A DNA stretch of 64,000 nt from Gallaecimonas sp. GXIMD4217 (GTDB lineage Bacteria > Pseudomonadota > Gammaproteobacteria > Enterobacterales > Gallaecimonadaceae): contig NZ_CP149925.1 in assembly GCF_038087665.1 (NCBI RefSeq), positions 2,294,870-2,358,869 on the forward strand, read 5' to 3'. Positions 22,763-40,017 of this stretch are shown one piece after another. Position 1 is the first letter of the stretch. Every line of letters begins with the position of its first letter. The notes under the pieces are model-generated. The model was not told the DNA's origin, ran no database searches, and saw nothing but the letters and a program-made list of their open reading frames with translations. A program made the position numbers and the translations under genes.

Positions 22763-24975
<2,213 letters not shown>

Positions 24976-24979
24976 ACAG

Positions 24980-25690
24980 ATGAAGATAGCGGTGATCCCC
25001 GCCAGGGGGGGCAGCAAACGCATCCCCCGCAAGAACCTGCGCCCCTTCTGCGGCAAGCCCATCATGGCCTACGCCATAGAGGCCGCCCTGGCCAGCGGCT
25101 GCTTCGACCTGGTACTGGTGTCCACCGACGACCAGGAAATGGCCGCCGTGGCCAGGGCTTGGGGGGCGGAAACCCCCTTTGTCCGTCCCGCCGCTCTGGC
25201 CGACGACGTCACCGGCACCAATGCCGTGGCCGCCCATGCCATCGACTGGTTCCAGCAGCAGGGACAACAGGTGACCGCCGCCTGCTGCCTCTATGCCACG
25301 GCGCCCTTCCTGACCCCGGACATCATCCGGGCCGGCGACAGGCTGCTGAGCCAGGCCCCAGACGCCGGCTTCGTGGTCACGGTCACCGAGTTCGAATTCC
25401 CCATCCAGAGGGCGGTTGGCATCGCCGACAACGGCCGGCTGGCGCTGCGCGAGCCCCAGCACCTGAAGAGCCGCTCCCAGGATCTGACCCCCTTCTATCA
25501 CGACGCCGGCCAGCTCTACTGGGGCCGCAGCGCCGCCTTCCTGGAGGACTGGCCCCTGTTCGGCGACAGGACGGTGCCGCTGCTGCTGCCCCGGGAAAGG
25601 GTGCAGGACATCGACACCGACGCCGACTGGCGCCGCGCCGAGCTGATGTACCAGGTCTGGCGCCGACAGCTCGAACAGGGAGACCAGTGA
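24980..25690 (+). CDS. pseF: PseF, CMP-pseudaminic acid synthase
   Basis: Cytidylyltransferase that activates pseudaminic acid with CTP. 236 residues from MKIAVIPARGGSKRIPRKN, the CTP-binding motif of this family. PFCGKPIMAYAIEAAL, STDDQEMAAVA and YATAPFLTPDIIRAG match NeuA/PseF enzymes. The genomic place after pseC (A. caviae flmA-flmB-neuA order) favours PseF over NeuA. Confidence 0.93.
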   Translation: MKIAVIPARGGSKRIPRKNLRPFCGKPIMAYAIEAALASGCFDLVLVSTDDQEMAAVARAWGAETPFVRPAALADDVTGTNAVAAHAIDWFQQQGQQVTAACCLYATAPFLTPDIIRAGDRLLSQAPDAGFVVTVTEFEFPIQRAVGIADNGRLALREPQHLKSRSQDLTPFYHDAGQLYWGRSAAFLEDWPLFGDRTVPLLLPRERVQDIDTDADWRRAELMYQVWRRQLEQGDQ

Positions 25691-25691
25691 C

Positions 25692-26354
25692 ATGCTGCCC
25701 AGGGAACCCATTTCGCTGCTGGTGGACAACGATTCCTGGATCCTGCCCCATGTGCAGGCACTGCAAACGGCACTGGCGGATCTCGGCTATGCCGCCAGCC
25801 TGTGCCGCCACGCCGACCAGGTTCGCCCCGGCATCGCCTGCTTCATGCTGGGCTGCGTCAGCCTGGTCCCCGAAGAGGTGCTGGCGCGCAACAAGCACAA
25901 CCTGGTGGTCCACGAGAGCGCCCTGCCCCAGGGACGCGGCTTCGCCCCCATGACCTGGCAGATCCTGGCGGGGCGCAACAGCATCCCCATCTGCCTGCTG
26001 GAGGCCACCGCCGAGGCCGATGCCGGCCCCATCTGGCTCAGGGACAGCATCGAACTGGACGGCAGCGAACTCTGCGATGAGTGGCGCCGGCGCCAGGGCG
26101 AGGCCACGGTACGCCTGTGCCTGGATTTCGTGCAACGCTACCAGAGCCTGCAACCCCAGGCCCAGCAGGGCGAGGCCAGCCACTACCGGCGCCGTGGGCC
26201 GGCCGACAGCGAGCTGGATCCCAACCTCAGCCTGGCCGAACAGTTCGAGCTGCTGCGGGTGGTGGACAACGAGCGCTACCCGGCCTTCTTCCATTACCGG
26301 GGCCGGCGCTACCGTCTCGCCATCACCCCGGATGAAGGACAGGACCATGACTGA
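25692..26354 (+). CDS. formyltransferase-like protein of the pseudaminic acid operon
   Basis: 220 residues resembling the N-terminal half of methionyl-tRNA formyltransferase. The HESALPQGRGFAPMTWQILA stretch corresponds to the catalytic HxSLLP-xxRGxxP region with H74, and D110 in EATAEADAGP to the catalytic aspartate; the asparagine normally two places before the histidine is replaced by V (VVH), with N70 nearby. Its position between pseF and pseG, and the lack of a GNAT-type PseH, suggest it acylates the 4-amino group of the sugar. That role is inference. It overlaps pseG by 8 bp. Confidence 0.75.
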   Translation: MLPREPISLLVDNDSWILPHVQALQTALADLGYAASLCRHADQVRPGIACFMLGCVSLVPEEVLARNKHNLVVHESALPQGRGFAPMTWQILAGRNSIPICLLEATAEADAGPIWLRDSIELDGSELCDEWRRRQGEATVRLCLDFVQRYQSLQPQAQQGEASHYRRRGPADSELDPNLSLAEQFELLRVVDNERYPAFFHYRGRRYRLAITPDEGQDHD

Positions 26355-27465
26355 CGGCATGCCGGTTGCCTTCAGGGTCGACGCCTGCCCCGCCATCGGC
26401 GCCGGGCACCTGCACCGCTGCCTGCACCTGGCCAGGGCCCTGGCCGAGCTGGGCGCCCGGGTTCGCTTTCTGATCCGGCCCCACCCACAGAGCCTGCACG
26501 GCCTGGTCGAGGAGGCGGGCTTCGGCCTTGAGCTGCTGCCGCCACCGCACTGGCAGGTCAAGCCTGCCGAGTCCCTGGACAGCCACAAGGCCTGGCTGGG
26601 CAAGACAGCGGCAGAGGATGCGGCGGAAACGGCGCGCCTGCTGAACGGGGACGATCTGCTCGTCTGCGACCATTACGGCATCGACGAACCCTGGCTGGCG
26701 CCGATCCGCGATCGCTGCCGGCTGGTGGCGGCACTGGACGACACCGCCAGCCGCAGGCTGGGGGTGGACGTGCTGATCAACAGCCTGCCGTCGGCAAGGG
26801 CCGATGACTACCGGGACCTGATCCGGCCCGACACCCAACTGCTGCTGGGTGCAGACTATGTGCCCCTGGGCGCCTCCTGGCCGGTCCAAAGAGCCGGTTA
26901 CCGGCCCGGTGACAGCATCGACAGGGTGCTGTTCTGCCCGGGCGGAACGGATCCCTTCGGGCTCAGCGAGCGGTTGCTGCCGCACCTGGTCGGGGCCGCG
27001 CCGGACGTGCAGTTCCACCTGGCCCTGCACGCCCCGCCACAGCGCCAGCGGCAACTGCGCCTGGCCCTGGACGGCCTTGGCAACGTCCGCTGCCACTTCG
27101 CCCTGACCGATCTGGCCGGGTTGGCCGCCGGCATGGATCTGGCCATCGGCAATGCCGGCAGCGGCGCCTGGGAACGGGCCTGCCTGGGGCTGGCCCAGAT
27201 CGCCATTCGCACCACCCCGGACCAGCACCGCATCGCCCACTGCCTGGCGGAGCAGGCACTGGCGCCGGTGTTCGACCAGGACGATGCCGCCCTGGTGGAC
27301 AAGGTGTTGGCAGCCTTCCTCGCACTGAGGGACAATCCCCGCCAACGCCAACAGCTTGCCGATAACGGCAAACGACTTATCGACGGCCGGGGCTGCTCGC
27401 GCATCGCCCGGATCCTGGCCGCGCGCTACCAAGACAGAGGAGCCAGCCATGCATTGGTCCCGTGA
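26347..27465 (+). CDS. pseG: PseG, UDP-2,4-diacylamido-trideoxy-L-altropyranose hydrolase
   Basis: Removes UDP to free the 6-deoxy-AltdiNAc-type sugar for PseI. 372 residues, GT-B-like fold: N-terminal FRVDACPAIGAGHLHRCLHL (the catalytic GxGHxxR motif), VCDHYGIDEPW, and C-terminal nucleotide site FALTDLAGLAAGMDLAIGNA, then GSGAWERACLGLAQIAI. The start follows GGACC weakly; the end overlaps pseI by 17 bp. Confidence 0.93.
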   Translation: MTDGMPVAFRVDACPAIGAGHLHRCLHLARALAELGARVRFLIRPHPQSLHGLVEEAGFGLELLPPPHWQVKPAESLDSHKAWLGKTAAEDAAETARLLNGDDLLVCDHYGIDEPWLAPIRDRCRLVAALDDTASRRLGVDVLINSLPSARADDYRDLIRPDTQLLLGADYVPLGASWPVQRAGYRPGDSIDRVLFCPGGTDPFGLSERLLPHLVGAAPDVQFHLALHAPPQRQRQLRLALDGLGNVRCHFALTDLAGLAAGMDLAIGNAGSGAWERACLGLAQIAIRTTPDQHRIAHCLAEQALAPVFDQDDAALVDKVLAAFLALRDNPRQRQQLADNGKRLIDGRGCSRIARILAARYQDRGASHALVP

Positions 27466-28504
27466 ATTCAGCATTGGCCGCCGCCAGGTGGGCGACGGCC
27501 ACCCCGCCTATATCATTGCCGAGATCGGCTCCAACCATAACCAGTCCCTGGCCCGGGCCAAGGAACTGATCGAGATGGCCAAGGAGGCCGGCGCCGACGC
27601 CGCCAAGTTCCAGTCGCTGCGCTACGACAAGCTGTACCGGGATGCCAATGCCCCGGCCGGCATCCAGGCGCTGTTCAGGCAGATCGAGCTGACCGAACAG
27701 TGGCACCTGGAACTGGCCGAGCACTGCCGCCGGCTCGACATCGACTTCTTCTCCGCCCCCACCTACCCCGAGGCGGTGGACTGGCTGCAGAAGGCCGGGG
27801 CCGAGGTGATCAAGGTGGCCTCGCCCCAGTTCGGCCTCTACCCCGAGGTACTGGATGCGGCCATCAACACCGGCAAGCCGCTGATCATGTCCGCCGGCCT
27901 GTCCGGCTACGGCGAAATAGAAGAGGTGCTGCGCCACTGCCAGCGCCGTGAGGCGCGGGATCTGGTGCTGCTGCACTGCGTTTCCCAGTACCCGACACCG
28001 CCGGCCAACGGCAATCTCAGGGTGATCCAGACCCTGCGCCAGGCCTACGGCTGCCTGACCGGCTACTCGGATCACACCCTGGGCATTCACTTCCCCATCG
28101 CCGCCGTGGCCCTGGGCGCCTGCGTCATCGAGAAACATTTCACCCCGGACCGCAACCTGCCCGGGCCGGACCACCACTTCGCCATCGAGCCCCAGGAATT
28201 CAAGGCCATGGTCCAGGGGATCCGCGACATCGAGGTCGGCCTGGGAGACGGCATCAAGGCGCCCCTCAGCGACTGGGAACGCCAGCACCGCGAAAACATC
28301 ACCATGAAACTGGTGGTGGACAAAGCCGTGCCGGCCGGCGCCGCCATCACCGCCAAGGCCCTGACCTTCAGGCGCGGCGACGGCGGCATCCCCAGGCACC
28401 AGCTTGAGCTGGCGACGCAATTCCGCCTCAAGAAGGATCGCCAGCTTGAGGCCGGCGACCTGGTGCAATGGCAGGATCTGGAGTTCAACGACCATGACGC
28501 TTGA
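27449..28504 (+). CDS. pseI: PseI, pseudaminic acid synthase
   Basis: Condenses the C6 amino sugar with phosphoenolpyruvate. 351 residues; TIM-barrel NeuB domain with AYIIAEIGSNHNQSLARAKE and CVSQYPTPP, YSDHTLG and IEKHFTPDR metal/substrate motifs, then a C-terminal antifreeze-like SAF domain (about 290-345). AGAGGAGCC precedes the ATG. It overlaps both neighbours, so it is part of the coupled series. Confidence 0.95.
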   Translation: MHWSREFSIGRRQVGDGHPAYIIAEIGSNHNQSLARAKELIEMAKEAGADAAKFQSLRYDKLYRDANAPAGIQALFRQIELTEQWHLELAEHCRRLDIDFFSAPTYPEAVDWLQKAGAEVIKVASPQFGLYPEVLDAAINTGKPLIMSAGLSGYGEIEEVLRHCQRREARDLVLLHCVSQYPTPPANGNLRVIQTLRQAYGCLTGYSDHTLGIHFPIAAVALGACVIEKHFTPDRNLPGPDHHFAIEPQEFKAMVQGIRDIEVGLGDGIKAPLSDWERQHRENITMKLVVDKAVPAGAAITAKALTFRRGDGGIPRHQLELATQFRLKKDRQLEAGDLVQWQDLEFNDHDA

Positions 28505-29693
28505 CGGCCGCAAGGCCCTGCTCATCAACCTGGGCTGGGAACAGCGCCCCTACCTGGACCGGCTGCTGGCGCTGGGAGTCGAGGTGTACGGGGTGCATCA
28601 TGAGCCCCTTTCGGCCCCTCTGCCCGGCCTGGCCGAGCTGCTGATCTGCCCCTATTTCGATACCGATACCATCACCGCCTTTGCCCGCCGCCACCAGGTG
28701 GAGGCCGTGATCAGCGACCAGTGCGACTACGCCCTCTTCGCCAGCGCCGTGGTCAGCCAGCGCCTGGGCCTGCCCGGCCCCGGGGTGGATGCGGCCCTGA
28801 AGACCACCAACAAATACCTGCAGCGCCAGGCCCTGGAGGGCAGCGGCATCCGCCAGCCACAATACCGGCTCTGCCTGCACCCGGATGACGTCCTGGCCTT
28901 CGGCCGGGAGCAGGGCTATCCGCTCATCGTCAAGCCGGTGGACGCCAGGGGCAGCTTCGGGGTCAGCAAGGTCACGGGCCCGGCCCAGGCCGCCGAGGCC
29001 TTCTGGGCCGCCCTGGCCCAGAGCCCGGCCAGGCAGGTGATCTGCGAGCGCTTCATCCACGGCACCCAGCTCACCGTCGACGGCTTCTGCCTGGACGGCA
29101 TCCCGCGCTCCCTGGCCGTGGCCAGCAAGGGCATGCTGGACGAGCAGCGCCAGGTGGCGGTGGACATCCATTACCCGGCCCGCATCGCCCCGGGGCTCAG
29201 GGACAAGGCCCTGGCCAACAACGATGCCGTTGCCAGGGCCCTGGGCCTGGAGTACGGCTTCCTCCATGGCGAGTACATGCTGACCGACGACGGCGAGCTG
29301 TACCTGATCGAGCTGGCCAACCGCGGCGGCGGCTGCCACACCTCCACCCACATAATACCGGCCATCAGCGGCATCAATGTCATGGATGCACTGATCTACG
29401 CCGCCTTTGGCCAGCAGGCCCCCTGCCTTGATACCGCATCACGGGACGGGGTACTGCTGAAATTCTTCCGCTTCGAGCGGCAGGGCCGGCTGCTGGCCCT
29501 GGCCGGCTGGGAGGACGCCCTGGCCATGCCCGGGGTGCTGACCGGCCGGGTCAACCTGAACCCGGGTGACGCCATCACCGACATTTCCAACGACGCCAAC
29601 CGCCATGGTTTCTTCATCGTCGCCGGTCCAGAGGACAGCCTCCATGACCGCTACCAGGCGGCGCTAGCGCGCCTAAGGATCACAGTGCAATGA
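28494..29693 (+). CDS. ATP-grasp enzyme, tailoring module gene 1
   Basis: 399 residues. An N-terminal Rossmann-like part (ALLINLGWEQRPYLDRLLAL) precedes an ATP-grasp domain: KTTNKYLQRQALEGSGIRQP, IVKPVDARGSFGVSKV (ATP-binding lysine and glycine loop) and YLIELANRGGG (metal-binding end). ATP-grasp enzymes of this carboxylate-amine ligase type join an acid to an amine or thiol through an acyl phosphate. The substrate is not visible. It overlaps pseI by 11 bp and the next gene by 4 bp, so it belongs to the sugar operon. Probably modifies the nonulosonic acid or prepares its substituent. Confidence 0.8.
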   Translation: MTLDGRKALLINLGWEQRPYLDRLLALGVEVYGVHHEPLSAPLPGLAELLICPYFDTDTITAFARRHQVEAVISDQCDYALFASAVVSQRLGLPGPGVDAALKTTNKYLQRQALEGSGIRQPQYRLCLHPDDVLAFGREQGYPLIVKPVDARGSFGVSKVTGPAQAAEAFWAALAQSPARQVICERFIHGTQLTVDGFCLDGIPRSLAVASKGMLDEQRQVAVDIHYPARIAPGLRDKALANNDAVARALGLEYGFLHGEYMLTDDGELYLIELANRGGGCHTSTHIIPAISGINVMDALIYAAFGQQAPCLDTASRDGVLLKFFRFERQGRLLALAGWEDALAMPGVLTGRVNLNPGDAITDISNDANRHGFFIVAGPEDSLHDRYQAALARLRITVQ

Positions 29694-30541
29694 CCGCCCT
29701 GTTCGATTTCAACTACCACCTGCCCAGGGTCGAGCCCGGCCTCGACCTGCAGCACCCCGCCCGGGCCGAGGCCCTGCAGGCGGCCATAGACCAGGAATAT
29801 CATCTGCTCGACCACGACTGGCAGGCCCTGCTGGCCCAGGCCGGTGAGCAGAGCCGACAACGCTGCCAGGCCGGCGCCCACCTGATGGTGCTGGACAGCC
29901 GCTTCGCCCAAAACGACAGCTGCCTGAACTGGCTGCAGCGGCACAGGCAAAATCCCACCACCCTGCTGGTGGACTTTCGCGCCGACGACATCAGGACCCA
30001 GCTGGCCAACATCGCCGACGCCGGCGCCAGGGGCATCAAGTTCCATCCCTACCTGCAGGCCATCACCAGCGCCGATCACGAGGCGGTCCAGGCCTGCGCC
30101 AGCCATGCCCAGGCGCTGGGCCTGTGGATCAGCGTCGACTGCAGCTACGGCACCCTGGCCCTGTACCGGTGCAGTGGCCCGGAGCTGCTGGCCGCCCTGC
30201 TGCCCACCATCAACAAGGTGCCGGTGTTCGCCCTGCATTTCGGCGGTCCCCGCATCCTGGATGTGATGATGCTGGCCCTGGCCGCCCCCAATCTCTACCT
30301 GGACACCTCGCTGTCGCTGAGCTTCTGGAAAGGCAGCACAGTGGACCAGGATCTGGCCTTCGCCATAGGCCGGCTGGGCGCCGAGCGCTTCCTGTTTGGC
30401 ACCGATCAGCCGTTCATCGCCTTCGAACAGGCGGTCAACGACATGGCAAGCTTCATGGACCGCTTCAAGCTCAACGAGGCGCAGTGCCGCTGGCTCTGGC
30501 GGGACAGCGCCCTGTCACTGATGTCGAGGTACGGCCAATGA
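29690..30541 (+). CDS. amidohydrolase-family protein, tailoring module gene 2
   Basis: 283 residues with a TIM-barrel amidohydrolase (type 2) pattern: an N-terminal FDFNYHLP strand in place of the usual HxH, GIKFHPYLQ, LHFGGPRILD and FLFGTDQPF, where H and D residues sit at metal-ligand positions of this superfamily. No signal peptide. Four-base overlaps on both sides. The substrate cannot be told; an amide or lactone hydrolase acting on a sugar substituent fits the setting, but this is inference. Confidence 0.7.
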   Translation: MTALFDFNYHLPRVEPGLDLQHPARAEALQAAIDQEYHLLDHDWQALLAQAGEQSRQRCQAGAHLMVLDSRFAQNDSCLNWLQRHRQNPTTLLVDFRADDIRTQLANIADAGARGIKFHPYLQAITSADHEAVQACASHAQALGLWISVDCSYGTLALYRCSGPELLAALLPTINKVPVFALHFGGPRILDVMMLALAAPNLYLDTSLSLSFWKGSTVDQDLAFAIGRLGAERFLFGTDQPFIAFEQAVNDMASFMDRFKLNEAQCRWLWRDSALSLMSRYGQ

Positions 30542-31749
30542 GCAAGCGCCCCTACGGCCCCTCCCGGCGGGTCGACGCCATTCCCCAGGCCATGTCCATC
30601 TACATCAACCAGCTGGTCTACCAGCTCAGGCGCCAGGGCCGCGCCATCACCTCCCTGTCATTGGGAGAGGCCTTCTTCGAGCTGCCACAGCTGGACTGGG
30701 AGGGTATCGACACCGAGGCCGGTTACCATTATTCGGACAGCCAGGGCCTGCCCGAGCTGAGGGAGCAGATCAGCCGCTATTACCGCCGCCAATACCAGGC
30801 CGATGTGGGCCCCGACGATCTGCTGATCTCCTGCGGCTCCAAACCGCTCATTTACCTGTGCATGCTGGCCACGGCCGAGCCGGGCGACGAGGTGCTGATC
30901 CACGAGCCGGGCTGGCTCAGCTATGTGGAGCAGGCCAGGCTGGCGGGCCTGGAAACCCGCTATCTGCCTTATGATCTGCCCCTGGCGGAGGTGGGGCGCC
31001 ATTTTTCCGACAGGACCCGGCTGCTGATCATCAACAACCCCAACAACCCGGCCGGTCGCCTCTACAGCAAGGCGGAGCTGCACTGCCTGTACCAGCAGTG
31101 CCGGGCCCACGGTATCTACCTGCTGGTGGACGAGGCCTACAGCGACTTCGTCGACGAGCCCTTCACCAGCCTGTGGAACCTGGAGGAAGACCGCAGTGGC
31201 ATGCTTATCGTCAATTCCCTGTCCAAGAACCTGGGCATGTCGGGCTGGCGGCTGGGCTACGTCATTGCCCCCCCGGAGCTGCTGACGGCGCTGCTCAAGC
31301 TCAACCAGCACCTGCTCACCTGCGCTCCCACCCTGCTGGCCCAGTACGTGGCGAGGCGTTTCGACGATCTGGTGGCCCATACCCGCGGCCAGATCGGCGC
31401 TCTTGTCGCCAAACGCCGGCGGCTGCGCCAGGCGCTGGTAGACCTGGGACTCGACGCCATGGCCGGTGACGCCACCTTCTACTTCTTCGTCGATGTCGGC
31501 GCCTATCCCCACGGCACCCTGAACCTGGCCCTGGATCTGCTGCTCAACCACGGCATTGCCGTGGTACCGGGCGGCGCCTATGGCGACAGCACGGCCCACT
31601 TCATTCGCCTGTCCATCGGTACCGAAAGCGAAGAGGACATCCTGGCGGCGCTGAAGGTGATCAAGGAAAAACTACGGCCGGACTGCCCCCTGGCGGATCT
31701 GGATCCACAACTACGGGCGCTGGGGCTGCCCCTGTGGGAGGACGCATGA
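30538..31749 (+). CDS. aspartate-aminotransferase-family (fold type I) enzyme, tailoring module gene 3
   Basis: 403 residues, class I/II pyridoxal-phosphate aminotransferase. Motifs in order: GYHYSDSQGLPELREQIS, NNPNNPAG at 166-173, DEAYSDF at 198-204, and the Schiff-base lysine K230 in NSLSKNLGMSGWRLGY. It is an amino-acid type aminotransferase, unlike the sugar aminotransferase PseC upstream, and so may supply an amino-acid or keto-acid substituent. Four-base overlaps join it to the genes on both sides. Confidence 0.85.
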   Translation: MSKRPYGPSRRVDAIPQAMSIYINQLVYQLRRQGRAITSLSLGEAFFELPQLDWEGIDTEAGYHYSDSQGLPELREQISRYYRRQYQADVGPDDLLISCGSKPLIYLCMLATAEPGDEVLIHEPGWLSYVEQARLAGLETRYLPYDLPLAEVGRHFSDRTRLLIINNPNNPAGRLYSKAELHCLYQQCRAHGIYLLVDEAYSDFVDEPFTSLWNLEEDRSGMLIVNSLSKNLGMSGWRLGYVIAPPELLTALLKLNQHLLTCAPTLLAQYVARRFDDLVAHTRGQIGALVAKRRRLRQALVDLGLDAMAGDATFYFFVDVGAYPHGTLNLALDLLLNHGIAVVPGGAYGDSTAHFIRLSIGTESEEDILAALKVIKEKLRPDCPLADLDPQLRALGLPLWEDA

Positions 31750-32414
31750 ACAAGGTATTGGTGGTGGCCGCCCATCCGGACGACGAGGTGCTGGGCTGTG
31801 GTGGCACCCTGGCCAAGCACGTGGCCGCGGGCGACAGCGTCGAGGTGCTGTTCATGGCCGACGGTGTCGGGGCCCGCAGCCCGGACCAGCAGGACCAGGC
31901 CCTGGCCAGCCGCAACAGGGCCGCAGAGGACGCCGCCGCCCGCCTGGGGATCAGCCGCCTGCACTGCCTTGGCCTGGCCGACAACCGCCTGGACGGCTAC
32001 CCGCTACTGGATCTGGTGCAGGCCCTGGAAGCCAAACTGGCCGGGATCCGCCCCGACATCATCTACAGCCACCACCATGGCGATCTCAACATCGACCACA
32101 GGCTGACCCACCAGGCGGTGATGACGGCCTGCCGGCCCCTGCCCGGCAGCAGCGTCAAGCGCCTCTATGCCTTCGAAGTCCAGTCCAGCACCGAGTGGGC
32201 CCTGCAGGGGCAGGGCTTCGTGCCCAACGTCTTCGTGGACATCAGTGACCACCTGGACGTCAAGCTCCAGGCACTGGGCTGTTATCAGGAAGAGATGCGG
32301 CCCTCCCCCCACGCCCGCTCGGTAGAGGCGGTCGAAGCCCTGGCCAGGTGGCGTGGCGCCTCCGTCGGCCAGGGGCCGACGGAGGCCTTTGTGCTGCTCA
32401 GGCAGTGCGATTAG
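31746..32414 (+). CDS. PIG-L family deacetylase, tailoring module gene 4
   Basis: 222 residues; the zinc-binding AHPDDE motif is at 9-14 and the second ligand motif is HHHGDLNIDH near 112-121. Family members remove acetyl groups from N-acetylated sugars (GlcNAc-PI, MshB, BshB). Here it could deacetylate a pseudaminic acid intermediate to free an amine for another acyl group. The last gene of the operon; its stop overlaps the maf stop tail-to-tail by 4 bp, with no terminator between. Confidence 0.85.
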   Translation: MNKVLVVAAHPDDEVLGCGGTLAKHVAAGDSVEVLFMADGVGARSPDQQDQALASRNRAAEDAAARLGISRLHCLGLADNRLDGYPLLDLVQALEAKLAGIRPDIIYSHHHGDLNIDHRLTHQAVMTACRPLPGSSVKRLYAFEVQSSTEWALQGQGFVPNVFVDISDHLDVKLQALGCYQEEMRPSPHARSVEAVEALARWRGASVGQGPTEAFVLLRQCD

Positions 32415-34501
32415 CGCCAGATGTGGCCCAGCTGTGAGGCATCGGGGGCCAGCCCCTGGGCCAGCAGCTTGGCCTTGGTGGCCTTGAGGTAGGCGATGAG
32501 GATGGCGCGGCCGTCCTCAAAGTTGGCCAGGCCCTCCTCCGGCGTTTGCGGCATCAGCAGCAGCTTGACCAGGGAGGAATGGCAGTACAGCAGGGTGCCC
32601 CTGAGCATGTCGGCCAGGTAGGCGGTTTCGCCCTGGTGGCCCACCAGCTCGTCGAACTGCTGCTGCAGCAGCGCCAGGGCTTGACTGCGGCTCTGCACAG
32701 GCCCAGCCACCAGCTCGACCAGCCGGTCCACCAGCTGGGCAAATTCCTGGCCTGAGCCTATGACTTCCATGCGCGCCGGCAGCGCCTCGGGCGCCTGGAT
32801 GGAGGCGGCCTCCATCAGGGCGTCGCAGTAGGCGTCCTTGTCCAGCGCCACGGGCGGCAACGCCACCTTGTCCACCGCTATGGGGGTGGCGCCGTCGATA
32901 AAGGCACCCTCGGCGGTGTTGTAGCAGTTAAGGTCGGGCGCCAGCTTGAGCAGCTCCTCGATGGACATCCGCGAGTAGTTGAAAATCGCCGAGGTATAGA
33001 CCTCGCCACCAAAGTTGGCCGGCACCTTGACCGCCTTCTGGGCATTGATGTCGAACAGGGCCTTGTCGTCACCTTCCTGATCGAAATAGATGCTGCCCTG
33101 GGCATGGTGCTGCTCACCGGGAAAGCCCATGTCCACACCCACCAGCACCACATCCCTGAAGCCCAGGGCCTCGGCGAAGGCCAGGGCGCAGTTGGACACG
33201 GTGGGGTTGCAGAAGTTGAGGGTGGAGATGGCCGGGTAACCGTCCAGCAACACCGAGGCCGCCTCGTTGAACTTCTTGGCCATCAGCACCCTGCCGAACT
33301 TGGCCGGCACTTCCGGGTGCACGGTGTTGAGGGTCAGCAGGCGCAGGCCGGCCAGGTAGTCGTCGTCCCCGATGGCGTTGAGCACGTCCCGGGTCACGGC
33401 GGTGCGCTCCATCTCCACATGGAAGTCCGGCCTGATGCCGTGGCGATGCAGGGCCTTGAGGGCGGTGCCGCAGCTGATGATCACCGCCCTGTCCTGCCAG
33501 GCCCTGAGCTGGGACCAGGCCTTGTCCAGGGAAGGACCGTTGCCGACGATGATCACCGGCAGCGCTTGGGGGTCCTTGCGGCGGCTCAGGAAGGGGGTGC
33601 CGGCCCTGATGTTGTGGTACTGGTGGGCCAGGCTCATCAGGGCATCGTCGAAGAAGCCGTAGCCGAACATCAGCTCGTAGCACTTCTTCTTGAACACTTC
33701 GATGGCGTGGGCCATGTTGGCGTCCAGGTAATGGACGTAGCAGTAGCTGAAGCTGGCCTCGTACTGGCCGTCGACGATCATCTGCCGGCTCAGGGCCTGG
33801 AAGAAGTCGTCGGCGTCGGCGCCCAGGCAGAGGTGGAAGCGGGCATCCAGCTCGTCCAGGCGCTTGAGCAGCGCCGCCCAGTCCACCACATGGAGGCTGG
33901 CGTAGAAGAAGTCCGGGTTGGGCTCGTAGAGGAACAGCCGGCGGATGTCCCGCTCCTGGACCAGCTTTTCCATGTCGAAGCCCAGGCCGATGCCGAATAC
34001 GATCAGGGAGTTGATCACCTCGGGCAGGTGCTCCTTGGCCTGCTGGCGGTCGAGCCGCTCCCCCGACAGGGCCAGCATCTTGTTCAGGTACTCCACGTGC
34101 ACGAAATTGCAGTGGTTGTCCGGATCCGCCTGCCAGTCGAAATAGGTGGTGATGGGGCTGGCACAAAAGCGCAGGTACTGGGCCAGGATCTGCTGGTAGG
34201 CGTTTTGCGGGTAAACCAGGCCGTCATCCTGGTTGTTGACCAGGTTCACGTCCCCCGGCGCCACCACGATCTCGAACTGCCTGGGCTGGTAGCCGGCCAG
34301 GGCCTGGGCCACGTCCGGCAGATATTGCTCCAGCGCCGCCATGTTATTGGCGAAGCGGGCCTCGTAGTCGATGTCGGGCAGCGCCAGTCCGGCCACTTCC
34401 GTCTCGACGAATTTCTCGCTCTCAACCCGTTTCTGGAGCTTTTGCTGGATCTTTTCCAGTTCGGCTATTTTGGCGTGGATGTCGTGTTCGAGTTCAGACA
34501 T
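32411..34501 (-). CDS. maf: Maf (motility accessory factor), putative flagellin glycosyltransferase
   Basis: 696 residues. The central MptE-like (DUF115) domain is recognisable from PVIIVGNGPSLDKAW and the following IISCGTALKALHRHGIRPDF, HVEME and LVGVDMGFPG. Maf proteins transfer nonulosonic acids to flagellin Ser/Thr residues in the cytoplasm. The N-terminal 60 residues are charged helix. It ends the flaG-fliD-fliS-fliT-maf series and meets the pseudaminic acid operon tail-to-tail, so donor synthesis and transfer genes lie together. Confidence 0.88.
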   Translation of the reverse strand: MSELEHDIHAKIAELEKIQQKLQKRVESEKFVETEVAGLALPDIDYEARFANNMAALEQYLPDVAQALAGYQPRQFEIVVAPGDVNLVNNQDDGLVYPQNAYQQILAQYLRFCASPITTYFDWQADPDNHCNFVHVEYLNKMLALSGERLDRQQAKEHLPEVINSLIVFGIGLGFDMEKLVQERDIRRLFLYEPNPDFFYASLHVVDWAALLKRLDELDARFHLCLGADADDFFQALSRQMIVDGQYEASFSYCYVHYLDANMAHAIEVFKKKCYELMFGYGFFDDALMSLAHQYHNIRAGTPFLSRRKDPQALPVIIVGNGPSLDKAWSQLRAWQDRAVIISCGTALKALHRHGIRPDFHVEMERTAVTRDVLNAIGDDDYLAGLRLLTLNTVHPEVPAKFGRVLMAKKFNEAASVLLDGYPAISTLNFCNPTVSNCALAFAEALGFRDVVLVGVDMGFPGEQHHAQGSIYFDQEGDDKALFDINAQKAVKVPANFGGEVYTSAIFNYSRMSIEELLKLAPDLNCYNTAEGAFIDGATPIAVDKVALPPVALDKDAYCDALMEAASIQAPEALPARMEVIGSGQEFAQLVDRLVELVAGPVQSRSQALALLQQQFDELVGHQGETAYLADMLRGTLLYCHSSLVKLLLMPQTPEEGLANFEDGRAILIAYLKATKAKLLAQGLAPDASQLGHIWR

Positions 34502-37123: not shown

Positions 37124-37942
37124 TTAGCCCAGCAGGGACAGGGCGATCTGCGGCTGCTGGTTGGCCTGGCTCAGCATGGAGCTGGCCGCCTGCTGCAGCA
37201 CCTGGTTACGGGCCAGGGCGGCGGATTCCGCGGCGAAGTCGGCATCCATGATCCGGCTGCGCGAGGCAGACACGTTCTCGGAGATGCTGTTCAGGTTGCG
37301 GATGGTGGACTGGAAGCGGTTCTGCTTGGCACCCAGGTTGGCGCGGGTGGTGTTGACGGTACCCAGGGCGGTATCCAGGGTAGCCACGGCGGCCTGGGCA
37401 CCGGAAGCGGTGGCAATGGAGGCGCCAGAAAGGCTCAGACCGGCGGCGTCCATGGCGGTAGCGATGGAGATGCCTATGGTCTGGTTGGCATCGGCACCGA
37501 CCTGGAAGGAGGCGGTGAAGGAGCCGTCCAGCAGCTTGACGCCACCGAAGGTGGTGTCGCCGGCGATACGGTCGATCTCGCTGGTCAGTTCGGTGAATTC
37601 CGCCTGCAACGCGGTGCGGTCGGAGGCAGTGTTGGAGCCGTTGGCGGACTGCAGGGACAGTACCCGCATGCGTTGCAGGATCTCGGTGGTCTCGTTCAGG
37701 GCGCCTTCGGCGGTCTGGGCCAGGGAGATGCCGTCGTTGGCGTTACGGGCGCCCTGGTTCAGGCCGTTGATCTGGGCCTTGAGGCGGGTACCGATCTGCA
37801 GGCCGGCGGCGTCATCGGCGGCGCTGTTGACGCGCAGGCCGGAAGACAGGCGCTGGAATGACTTGGACAGGTCATTGGTGGCGCCGGACAGATTGCGCTG
37901 CGAGTTCAAGGACGAGACATTGGTATTTACAAACAGGGCCAT
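37124..37942 (-). CDS. flagellin (first of three, sigma-28 promoter)
   Basis: Filament subunit, 272 residues. The D0/D1 N-terminal region [20 protein letters not shown] to about residue 160 and the C-terminal region ending [16 protein letters not shown] are conserved; the short variable part is about 165-195. No D2/D3 domains, normal for 28-kDa polar flagellins. Very similar to the next gene except in the middle. Preceded by a sigma-28 promoter and a leader with an inverted repeat. Probable substrate of Maf. Confidence 0.97.
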
Positions 37943-38029
37943 GATTCAGTCTCCTAAAAAGTGAGCCTTGGAACGGCGTCATGTGCTTTTCCTAAACTCA
38001 CACGCCGGGTCATTTCTTGTTCAACCTCT

Positions 38030-38056
38030 ATAACGGCGCCGAAGCGGGAAACTTTT
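38030..38056 (-). promoter_or_regulatory. sigma-28 promoter of the first flagellin gene
   Basis: Minus-strand AAAAGTTT, 11 bases, GCCGTTAT; close to TAAAGTTT-N11-GCCGATAA. About 90 bases before the start codon. Confidence 0.85.
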
Positions 38057-38114
38057 ATATCAAAAAGGAATAAATAAAGCGTTTTTGATTCCTTGAATCG
38101 GTTTCGTCAACCAT

Positions 38115-38144
38115 AAAAAACGCCCTCCTTGGAGGGCGTTTTTT
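38115..38144 (-). terminator. bidirectional intrinsic terminator after the second flagellin gene
   Basis: Stem CGCCCTCC/GGAGGGCG with loop TT, flanked by six A and six T residues; placed 17 bp after the stop codon. Confidence 0.92.
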
Positions 38145-38160
38145 ATGTGGCGGCAGACCT

Positions 38161-38991
38161 TTAACCCAGCAGGGACAGGGCGATTTGCGGCTGCTGGTTG
38201 GCCTGGCTCAGCATGGAGCTGGCCGCCTGCTGCAGCACCTGGTTACGGGCCAGGGCGGCGGATTCCGCGGCGAAGTCGGCATCCATGATCCGGCTGCGCG
38301 AGGCGGACACGTTCTCGGAGATGCTGTTGAGGTTGCGGATGGTGGACTGGAAGCGGTTCTGCTTGGCACCCAGGTTGGCGCGGGTGGTGTTGACGGTGCC
38401 CAGGGCGGTATCCAGAGTGGCCACGGCAGCCTGAGCACCAGCGGCCGTAGAAATGGAAACACTACCCGCAGTACCGGTCAGGCCCAGACCTCCGGAGCCC
38501 ATGGAGGTGGCAATGGCAATATTGATGACCTGGTTGGCATCGGCACCAACCTGGAAGTCGGCGGTGAAGGAGCCATCCAACAGGGCCACGCCCCCAAAGG
38601 TGGTGTCGCCGGCGATACGGTTGATCTCGCTGGTCAGTTCGGTGAATTCCGCCTGCAACGCGGTGCGGTCGGAATCGGTGTTGGAGCCGTTGGCGGACTG
38701 CAGGGACAATACCCGCATGCGCTGCAGGATCTCGGTGGTCTCGTTCAGGGCGCCTTCGGCGGTCTGGGCCAGGGAGATACCGTCGTTGGCGTTACGGGCG
38801 CCCTGGTTCAGGCCATTGATCTGGGCCTTGAGGCGGGTACCGATCTGCAGGCCGGCGGCATCGTCGGCGGCGCTGTTGACGCGCAGGCCGGAAGACAGGC
38901 GCTGGAAGGACTTGGCCAGATCGCCGGTAGCCCCGGACAGGTTACGCTGTGAGTTCAGGGATGAAACGTTGGTGTTTACAAACAGTGCCAT
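38161..38991 (-). CDS. flagellin (second of three, sigma-28 promoter)
   Basis: 276 residues. The first ~160 residues differ from the first flagellin at only a few sites (for example GDLAKSF for NDLSKSF, INRIAG for IDRIAG), and the last ~85 residues look identical; differences concentrate at about 150-190, with [15 protein letters not shown] here. Recent duplication or gene conversion at the ends would explain this. Own sigma-28 promoter, leader inverted repeat and strong terminator. Confidence 0.97.
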
Positions 38992-39081
38992 GATTCGGTC
39001 TCCTCAAGAGTGAATTGGAGCGGCGTCAAGGGCTTATCCCAACTCACACGCCGTGGCAGTTTTTGGTCTTGTTCAGACCCT

Positions 39082-39108
39082 GTAACGGCTTCCATCGAGA
39101 AAACTTTT
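39082..39108 (-). promoter_or_regulatory. sigma-28 promoter of the second flagellin gene
   Basis: Minus-strand AAAAGTTT, 11 bases, GCCGTTAC; same arrangement as the first flagellin promoter. Confidence 0.83.
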
Positions 39109-39141
39109 ATAAATTTTCGACATTAAAAGTTAAAAGGATAT

Positions 39142-39166
39142 AAAAAACCCGCCAGAAAGGCGGGTT
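39142..39166 (-). terminator. intrinsic terminator after the third flagellin gene
   Basis: Stem CCCGCC/GGCGGG with loop AGAAA, followed on the minus strand by six T residues; 18 bp after the stop codon. Confidence 0.9.
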
Positions 39167-39183
39167 CTTTGAGGGCGATACAC

Positions 39184-40017
39184 TTAGCCCTGCAGCAAAG
39201 ACAAGGCTATCTGAGGCTGCTGATTGGCCTGGGTCAGCATGGAGCTGGCCGCCTGCTGCAGCACCTGGTTGCGGGCCAGGGTTGCCGATTCCTTGGCGAA
39301 GTCCGCATCGATGATCCGCGATCGGGCCGCGGACACGTTTTCCTCGATGTTGGTGAGGTTGCGGATGGTGGACTGGAAGCGGTTCTGCTTGGCACCCAGG
39401 TTGGCCCTGGCATTGTTGACCACGGACAGGGCGCTGTCGATGGTGGTGATGGCCGCCTGGGCATCCGTATCCGTGGTAATGTTGGTGGCGGTACTGCCCG
39501 TCCCCAGGCCAAGGCCGGTGCCGTTCATGGCTACGGAGATGGACAGGGCTATGGTCTGGTTGGCATCGGGACCGATCTGGAAGGCGGCGCTGTAGGAGCC
39601 GTCGAGGATCTGCACGCCGCCAAAGGTGGTGTCGTTGGCGATACGGTTGATCTCGGCGGTCAGCTCCTGGAATTCGGCGTTAAGGGCCTGGCGGTCGGAC
39701 GCGGTATTGGAGCCGTTGGCGGACTGCAGGGCCAGCACCCGCATGCGCTGCAGGATATTGGTGGTCTCGTCCAGGGCGCCTTCGGCGGTCTGGGCCAGGG
39801 AAATACCGTCGTTGGCGTTACGGGCCGCCTGGCCCAGGCCGTTGATCTGGGACTGCAGGCGGGTACCGATCTGCAGGCCGGCGGCGTCGTCCTTGGCGGA
39901 GTTGACGCGTTTACCGGAAGACAGCCGCTGGAATGATGTCCCCAGGGCTTCGGTTGCACCGCTGAGGTTACGCTGAGAGTTCAGCGATGCGACGTTAGTG
40001 TTCACGAAAAGTGGCAT
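39184..40017 (-). CDS. flagellin (third, sigma-54 promoter; FlaA-like)
   Basis: 277 residues, [20 protein letters not shown] start and [10 protein letters not shown] end. More divergent from the other two along its whole length ([30 protein letters not shown]). It alone has a sigma-54 promoter, the arrangement of V. cholerae flaA, which is the essential flagellin there; by analogy this may be the core filament subunit. AAGGAGAGG precedes the ATG. Adjacent to flgL but separately transcribed. Confidence 0.96.

Follow-up and report, generated by a model that had tools for sequence, protein, structure and literature searches.

Unusual N-acyl groups of nonulosonic acids are known from chemistry, and a complete candidate set of genes for such groups (a deacetylase, a ligase and an acid maker) is named by a block of four genes at positions 28494-32414 of a 64,000-nucleotide stretch of Gallaecimonas sp. 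GXIMD4217 (contig NZ_CP149925.1, positions 2,294,870 to 2,358,869, forward strand; this whole stretch is hereafter called the window). The block, encoding an ATP-grasp ligase, an amidohydrolase-like protein, an aminotransferase and a PIG-L deacetylase, closes a ten-gene operon with pseudaminic acid (pse) genes. Should the reading proposed below be true, the exchangeable acid maker that it predicts would permit gene-based prediction of such sugars on flagella and capsules.

Among described systems, the flagellin of Shewanella bears a pseudaminic-type acid with one N-acetyl group (274 Da), to which a further moiety of 236-264 Da is attached, and deletion of sfmE shifts the flagellin mass (PMC3765264). 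Like the window, the sfmABCDE locus of Shewanella oneidensis has, close to flagellin genes, Maf, a NeuB-family synthase and SfmE, a protein of the ATP-grasp_4 family; however, a methyltransferase, a thiamine pyrophosphate (TPP) enzyme and an oxoacyl reductase are also encoded there, the published gene list contains no PIG-L, amidohydrolase or aminotransferase, and SfmE is likened to the window protein by family description only (PMC3765264). Neither a TPP-dependent enzyme nor an oxoacyl-acyl carrier protein reductase was found among the ten window operon genes by Pfam and NCBIfam. The pilin sugar of Pseudomonas aeruginosa 1244, 5-N-(3-hydroxybutyryl)-7-N-formyl pseudaminic acid, combines an N7 formyl with a non-acetyl N5 acyl group, as predicted here, but its acyl group is hydroxy-acyl and not amino-acyl, and the likeness drawn is one of sugar structure (PMC6222762). 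Leg5GluNMe7Ac of Clostridium botulinum flagellin is a nonulosonic acid whose N5 bears an amino acid, N-methyl-glutamyl, also as predicted here, but its core is legionaminic; a PtmH-type methyltransferase is implicated there, and no ligase is named in the text consulted (PMC5207245, PMC13317340). The peptidylamido-glycan genes CDR20291_0244-0247 for type B flagellin of Clostridium difficile resemble the window in that an ATP-grasp_4 ligase gene and one for an amino-acid enzyme are neighbours in a locus for flagellin glycans, whereas they act on a fucosamine-capped glycan, not a nonulosonic acid, and no PIG-L is listed (PMC5207245, PMC5207246). Aeromonas group I flagellin glycosylation islands (subgroups IE/IF) have a deacetylase among pse genes near Maf and flagellar genes, but the paper names no ATP-grasp or amidohydrolase for them (PMC7874193). 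The bacillithiol route follows the logic proposed here, in that an amino acid is joined to an amine exposed by a PIG-L enzyme (BshB). Its BshC is, however, not known as an ATP-grasp enzyme, and both the sugar and the purpose differ. Treponema denticola reportedly has a flagellar nonulosonic acid with a methoxy-trihydroxyhexanoyl group, a substituent that an aldolase and a methyltransferase could together account for.

No description of the four-gene set itself was found in the openly accessible literature, subscription papers lying outside the search. Of the candidate undescribed system proposed in a preliminary description of this DNA, the novelty of the exact block stands within that literature, while nonulosonic acids with aminoacyl or formyl groups are known, as are ATP-grasp genes required for flagellin glycans. 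The block represents an uncommon but well-defined form of nonulosonic acid tailoring and not a system of a new kind; what is new are the complete recurrent gene set, its occurrence outside flagellar loci and the combination of a fixed pair of ligase and amidohydrolase with an acid maker that can be exchanged.

A predicted acyl-exchange module and its enzymes

With a probability of about 0.57, the four genes constitute an acyl-exchange module for a pseudaminic-type acid, in which PIG-L would remove an N-acetyl group and the ATP-grasp enzyme would attach an acid provided by an exchangeable enzyme. This deacetylate-then-re-acylate logic, already put forward in the preliminary description, is consistent with the enzyme families. 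In the proposed pathway, PseB and PseC would generate UDP-4-amino-4,6-dideoxy-L-AltNAc, whose 4-amine (N7 of the product) would be formylated by the formyltransferase-like protein, and PIG-L would deacetylate the 2-amine, which becomes N5 of the product. The class I/II aminotransferase would make the acid by transaminating a 2-oxo acid, the amidohydrolase-like protein would probably keep this acid open as a lactonase or otherwise ready it, and the ATP-grasp enzyme would convert it to an acyl phosphate and join it to the amine freed by PIG-L. PseG, a divergent synthase and PseF would then lead to the CMP-sugar, for transfer by Maf to flagellin. Since the aminotransferase would act on a 2-oxo acid, an amino acid or an amino-acid derivative is the probable new group, and the predicted product is probably a pseudaminic-type acid formylated on N7 and N-aminoacylated on N5. 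The chemistry and the order of these steps are predictions from sequence.

All four proteins exceed their Pfam gathering scores. The ATP-grasp protein matches LAL_C2 with 52 bits (cut-off 29), and its AlphaFold2 model (mean predicted local distance difference test score, pLDDT, 88.7) has L-amino acid ligases as best structural matches (3vot, Z 39.5, root-mean-square deviation 2.8 over 380 residues). Ligases of this type turn a carboxylate into an acyl phosphate and pass it to an amine, and the window protein is a predicted carboxylate-amine ligase of the L-amino-acid-ligase type. In the aminotransferase, whose nearest solved relatives are aspartate aminotransferases, the Lys of the motif SLSKN and the Arg of FIRLS are conserved with G049 in an alignment (G-numbers denote sampled genomes and L-numbers loci within them). 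This Lys binds pyridoxal phosphate and the Arg holds the carboxylate of an amino acid, so that the substrate is probably a 2-oxo acid. A role of the aminotransferase on the sugar was dropped because it is a class I/II enzyme with the carboxylate-binding Arg and PseC already performs the sugar step. PIG-L scores 98 bits (cut-off 28), shares its AHPDDE and NIDHR motifs (metal/base and distal His) with G049 and G435, and has BshB1 as its best, although weak, NCBIfam relative; it is predicted to be an amino-sugar N-deacetylase. Characterised PIG-L enzymes remove acetyl from N-acetylglucosamine (GlcNAc) units (PMC4101496), which points to the 2-N-acetyl group of the hexose, i.e. N5 of the nonulosonic acid, as the probable site.

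The Amidohydro_2 protein (54 bits, cut-off 26), proposed as a putative lactonase, is the least certain part of the scheme. In an alignment of six sequences the HxH metal motif of strand 1 reads NxH in the window, G049 and G435, while His183 and Asp239 are kept. Its model (pLDDT 74) is closest to the COG3618 proteins 4dlf and 4do7 (Z 18.4) and to PDC-lactonase types (4i6k, 2ffi and 4di9; 16-17), but dihydroorotases, reaching 17.1, come within 2 Z units.

Recurrence of the block and its constant pair

When 296 genomes of the order were searched for relatives of the ATP-grasp protein, one close relative emerged, in G049. This genome has the same ten genes in unchanged order with proteins 29-74% identical (50% for PIG-L), and the window arrangement is therefore not due to chance. 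A profile of six amidohydrolase sequences, run over 395 genomes of the order, had matches only in the window and G049, and class- and phylum-level profile searches uncovered four more loci with a relative of the amidohydrolase adjacent to, or a few genes from, an ATP-grasp gene. In G435, a pse operon is accompanied by the ATP-grasp gene, a 4-hydroxy-2-oxovalerate-type aldolase (271 bits, cut-off 229) and a methyltransferase that together take the place of the aminotransferase, the amidohydrolase, a PseG-like protein and PIG-L; identities to the window are 34% for the ATP-grasp protein, 30% for the amidohydrolase and 57% for PIG-L. The pse operon of G731 contains, besides the ATP-grasp and amidohydrolase genes, a radical S-adenosylmethionine protein, an RraA-type aldolase and several methyltransferases, among them a methylase associated with pseudaminic acid, and in G701 ATP-grasp, amidohydrolase and methyltransferase genes adjoin a synthase and PseC/PseF-like genes. 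In G975 the ATP-grasp and amidohydrolase genes lie in a locus of the exopolysaccharide type, of which 20 kb were read and showed no nonulosonate synthase; the pair may also serve other sugars.

Together, the preliminary assignment of the four genes to a nonulosonic acid operon is borne out by their co-occurrence with pse genes, as a whole block in G049 and as parts of it in G435, G731 and G701. ATP-grasp and amidohydrolase occur together in all six strong matches, side by side in the window, G049, G701 and G975 and close to each other in G435 and G731; five of the six pairs lie in a nonulosonate operon, and three (window, G049 and G435) have PIG-L. The ATP-grasp and amidohydrolase genes are the constant pair, and the acid-making enzyme, here the aminotransferase, is the exchangeable part. 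A broader and tentative view, possible rather than probable, takes this pair as a portable acyl-loading core for surface sugars whose neighbouring acid maker is swapped by species (aminotransferase, DmpG-type aldolase, RraA-type aldolase or methyltransferases), so that many N-acyl nonulosonic acids would arise from one genetic scheme. The amidohydrolase may there be a lactonase opening the lactone of a 4-hydroxy acid or an amino acid before ligation, a role that would suit the aldolase partners because 4-hydroxy acids lactonise.

Several points weigh against acyl exchange by the four genes. Sequence fixes neither the nitrogen that is exchanged nor the stage of the exchange, the metal motif of the amidohydrolase is degenerate and its role is a guess, the formyltransferase-like protein is without the usual motif Asn, so that formylation is not certain, and the complete block was found in two genomes only. 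Furthermore, the loci of G731, G701 and G975 showed no PIG-L, hence ligation there seems not to use this deacetylase. The same three pairs would also fit addition of an amino-acid-like group to an existing position (a hydroxyl as an ester, or the second amine), in which PIG-L would trim an acetyl that belongs to the added group or to an N-acetylated precursor and the core N-acyls would stay in place. Ester-linked glycine and N-acetyl-glutamine are indeed reported on flagellar pseudaminic acid in Aeromonas caviae and Campylobacter jejuni (PMC5207245). Nevertheless, addition to an existing position appears rather unlikely, given that characterised PIG-L enzymes act on GlcNAc-type N-acetyl groups and that PIG-L is the best conserved block gene between the window and G435 even though the acid-making enzymes differ there.

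Some matches were set aside: two relatives of G049, G087 and G131, have ATP-grasp matches within loci of the O-antigen type, but these are of another subfamily and lack the block; the ATP-grasp gene of G013 (28%) is on a 3 kb contig where the block is not visible; and the weaker amidohydrolase matches in G900, at a contig edge, and G990 have no visible ATP-grasp neighbour. Scanning 84,980 genomes with patterns from the ATP-grasp protein gave nothing, and patterns from the amidohydrolase alignment gave only unrelated amidohydrolases without an adjacent ATP-grasp gene, both scans using short exact patterns only, so that they argue only weakly for absence. Neither viral nor phage copies were found, and the plasmid matches, among the rows listed, were generic and below 33%.

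G435 also encodes a 358-amino-acid protein without Pfam or NCBIfam match and a neighbour that fuses a PseG-like N-terminus to a PseH-like acetyltransferase (L031:3314-4390 and L031:4395-5189), as well as a second PseG-like gene at L031 9902-10858. In G975 the pair, at L038:8236-10234, is followed by a beta-lactamase-family protein.

The formyltransferase-like gene and the divergent synthase

The preliminary description referred to an N-acyltransferase as part of the known pathway; the candidate for it is the formyltransferase-like gene inside the operon (fmtL), and no PseH over the 93-bit cut-off was found in the whole genome (best match, 66 bits). fmtL has a counterpart in the same place in G049 (47% identical). 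NxH is the usual motif of formyltransferases, which in the alignment reads VVH here, the Asn not being conserved and the His and Asp being retained. It is proposed that fmtL would replace PseH and formylate the 4-amine, since with fmtL in the operon and no PseH over cut-off the second nitrogen probably carries a formyl and not an acetyl group; the pseudaminic-type sugar would thus probably be N-formylated as well.

If PIG-L and the formyltransferase-like protein instead worked as a pair, taking acetyl off and putting formyl on, the other three enzymes would make a separate substituent at the other amine. Such pairing by position is seen in G040, where PIG-L lies beside a formyltransferase in a NeuC/NeuB-type operon, and a deacetylase also lies among pse genes in Aeromonas flagellin islands (PMC7874193). 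However, the pse operon of G078 has the same formyltransferase-like family with no PIG-L found, and the PIG-L of G435 accompanies an acetyltransferase with no formyltransferase found, which makes this division of labour quite improbable. Synthesis by the four genes of some small molecule that has nothing to do with the sugar, with no more than a transcript in common, is very improbable, for although the aminotransferase and ligase families are generic and their link to the sugar is by sequence only, the same pse linkage recurs in G049 and partly in G435, G731 and G701, with co-inheritance with a distinct synthase clade.

Of the ten-gene pse operon as first described, PseB, PseC, PseF and PseG pass their NCBIfam cut-offs, whereas the supposed PseI is a divergent synthase scoring below both the PseI (242 bits, cut-off 340) and NeuB (282 bits, cut-off 400) cut-offs. 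The synthase of G049 behaves likewise (225 and 265 bits), and the canonical PseI of G731 reaches 474 bits against the PseI model; the window and G049 synthases thus form a distinct branch. In the synthase tree the window, G049 and G435, i.e. the three PIG-L operons, form one clade (support 100/99), whereas in the PseB tree G049 joins its own genus mates (100/99) and the window is nearest its own genus mates by distance, both trees being small (11 and 9 rows) and the G435 branch long. The downstream part of the operon therefore appears to travel with the synthase, separately from pseB, as in cassette exchange. A synthase clade shared by PIG-L operons would be expected if the synthase were matched to a modified substrate, which weakly suggests that the acyl exchange precedes the synthase step.

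Organization of the operon

The positions, overlaps and families given in the preliminary description for the four open reading frames were all reproduced, the families by Pfam, and the features are collected in Table 1. Computed from start and stop codons, the synthase and ATP-grasp genes overlap by 11 bp and the three following junctions by 4 bp each. The operon extends from pseB at 22835 to the end of the PIG-L gene at 32414. The terminator-like hairpin is the only strong structure of its kind on the + strand, and no promoter-like site was conspicuous inside the operon, both by consensus scan only; its position at the PIG-L end fits one predicted ten-gene transcription unit. The GC content, overall and at third codon positions, of the four genes matches that of the other six, and composition thus gives no indication that they were imported recently.

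Table 1. Genes and other features of the operon and its 3' flank (window coordinates)
Feature	Position	Strand	Evidence
pseB (UDP-GlcNAc 4,6-dehydratase, inverting)	22835..23836	+	NCBIfam PseB 552 bits, cut-off 408
pseC (sugar 4-aminotransferase)	23833..24975	+	NCBIfam PseC 517 bits, cut-off 424
pseF (CMP-sugar synthetase; start taken at MKIAVIPARGG)	24980..25690	+	NCBIfam PseF 312 bits, cut-off 206
fmtL (formyltransferase-like gene)	25692..26354	+	Pfam Formyl_trans_N 28.1 bits, cut-off 26.1
pseG (UDP-sugar hydrolase)	26347..27465	+	NCBIfam PseG 173 bits, cut-off 154
Divergent nonulosonate synthase (NeuB/PseI family)	27449..28504	+	Pfam NeuB 255 bits
Predicted ATP-grasp carboxylate-amine ligase with LAL_C2 domain, 399 amino acids	28494..29693	+	LAL_C2 7e-14, ATP-grasp_4 7e-12
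Amidohydro_2 (TIM-barrel) protein	29690..30541	+	Pfam Amidohydro_2 2e-14
Class I/II (AspC-type) aminotransferase	30538..31749	+	Pfam Aminotran_1_2 2.9e-58, 198 bits
Predicted PIG-L (LmbE-like) N-deacetylase	31746..32414	+	Pfam PIG-L 8.5e-28
Terminator-like hairpin, 13-bp stem	32358..32386	+	Consensus match only; within last codons of PIG-L gene
Maf-type flagellin glycosyltransferase gene, convergent	32411..34501	-	Homology and gene context

Flagellar context and genus mates

The Maf-type gene next to the operon is the only one in the genome at E<=1e-20, its counterpart adjoins flagellin genes in four genus mates, and the genome holds a single nonulosonate synthase; Maf is likely the user of the sugar in this genome. 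Placement of the product on flagellin, as first suggested, is accordingly likely for the window but is not a property of the module, as the same operon in G049 is in a surface-polysaccharide locus, and a block specific to flagellin was dropped as an explanation for this reason. As read by eye from sequence, the G049 operon is flanked on one side by UDP-glucose dehydrogenase- and pyrophosphorylase-like genes and on the other by nonulosonate and flippase-like genes, and no Maf homologue was detected beside it; there, a polysaccharide transferase would use the CMP-sugar instead of Maf.

Four genus mates (L023, L024, L025 and L026) are without the block; between their flrA and maf genes, the corresponding slot is occupied by other nonulosonate operons. 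Across the five sampled genus members this interval (22835-34501 in the window) holds differing nonulosonate operons, with the flanking flagellar genes conserved, and it looks like a site of nonulosonate cassette exchange. At least three tandem flagellin genes (37124-40017) are located downstream of fliD-, fliS- and maf-like genes in the window. In the flrA-maf slot of the genus mate G040, a two-domain formyltransferase and PIG-L are side by side within the nonulosonate operon (L026:7299-8866), which suggests an acetyl-to-formyl exchange on another nonulosonic acid.

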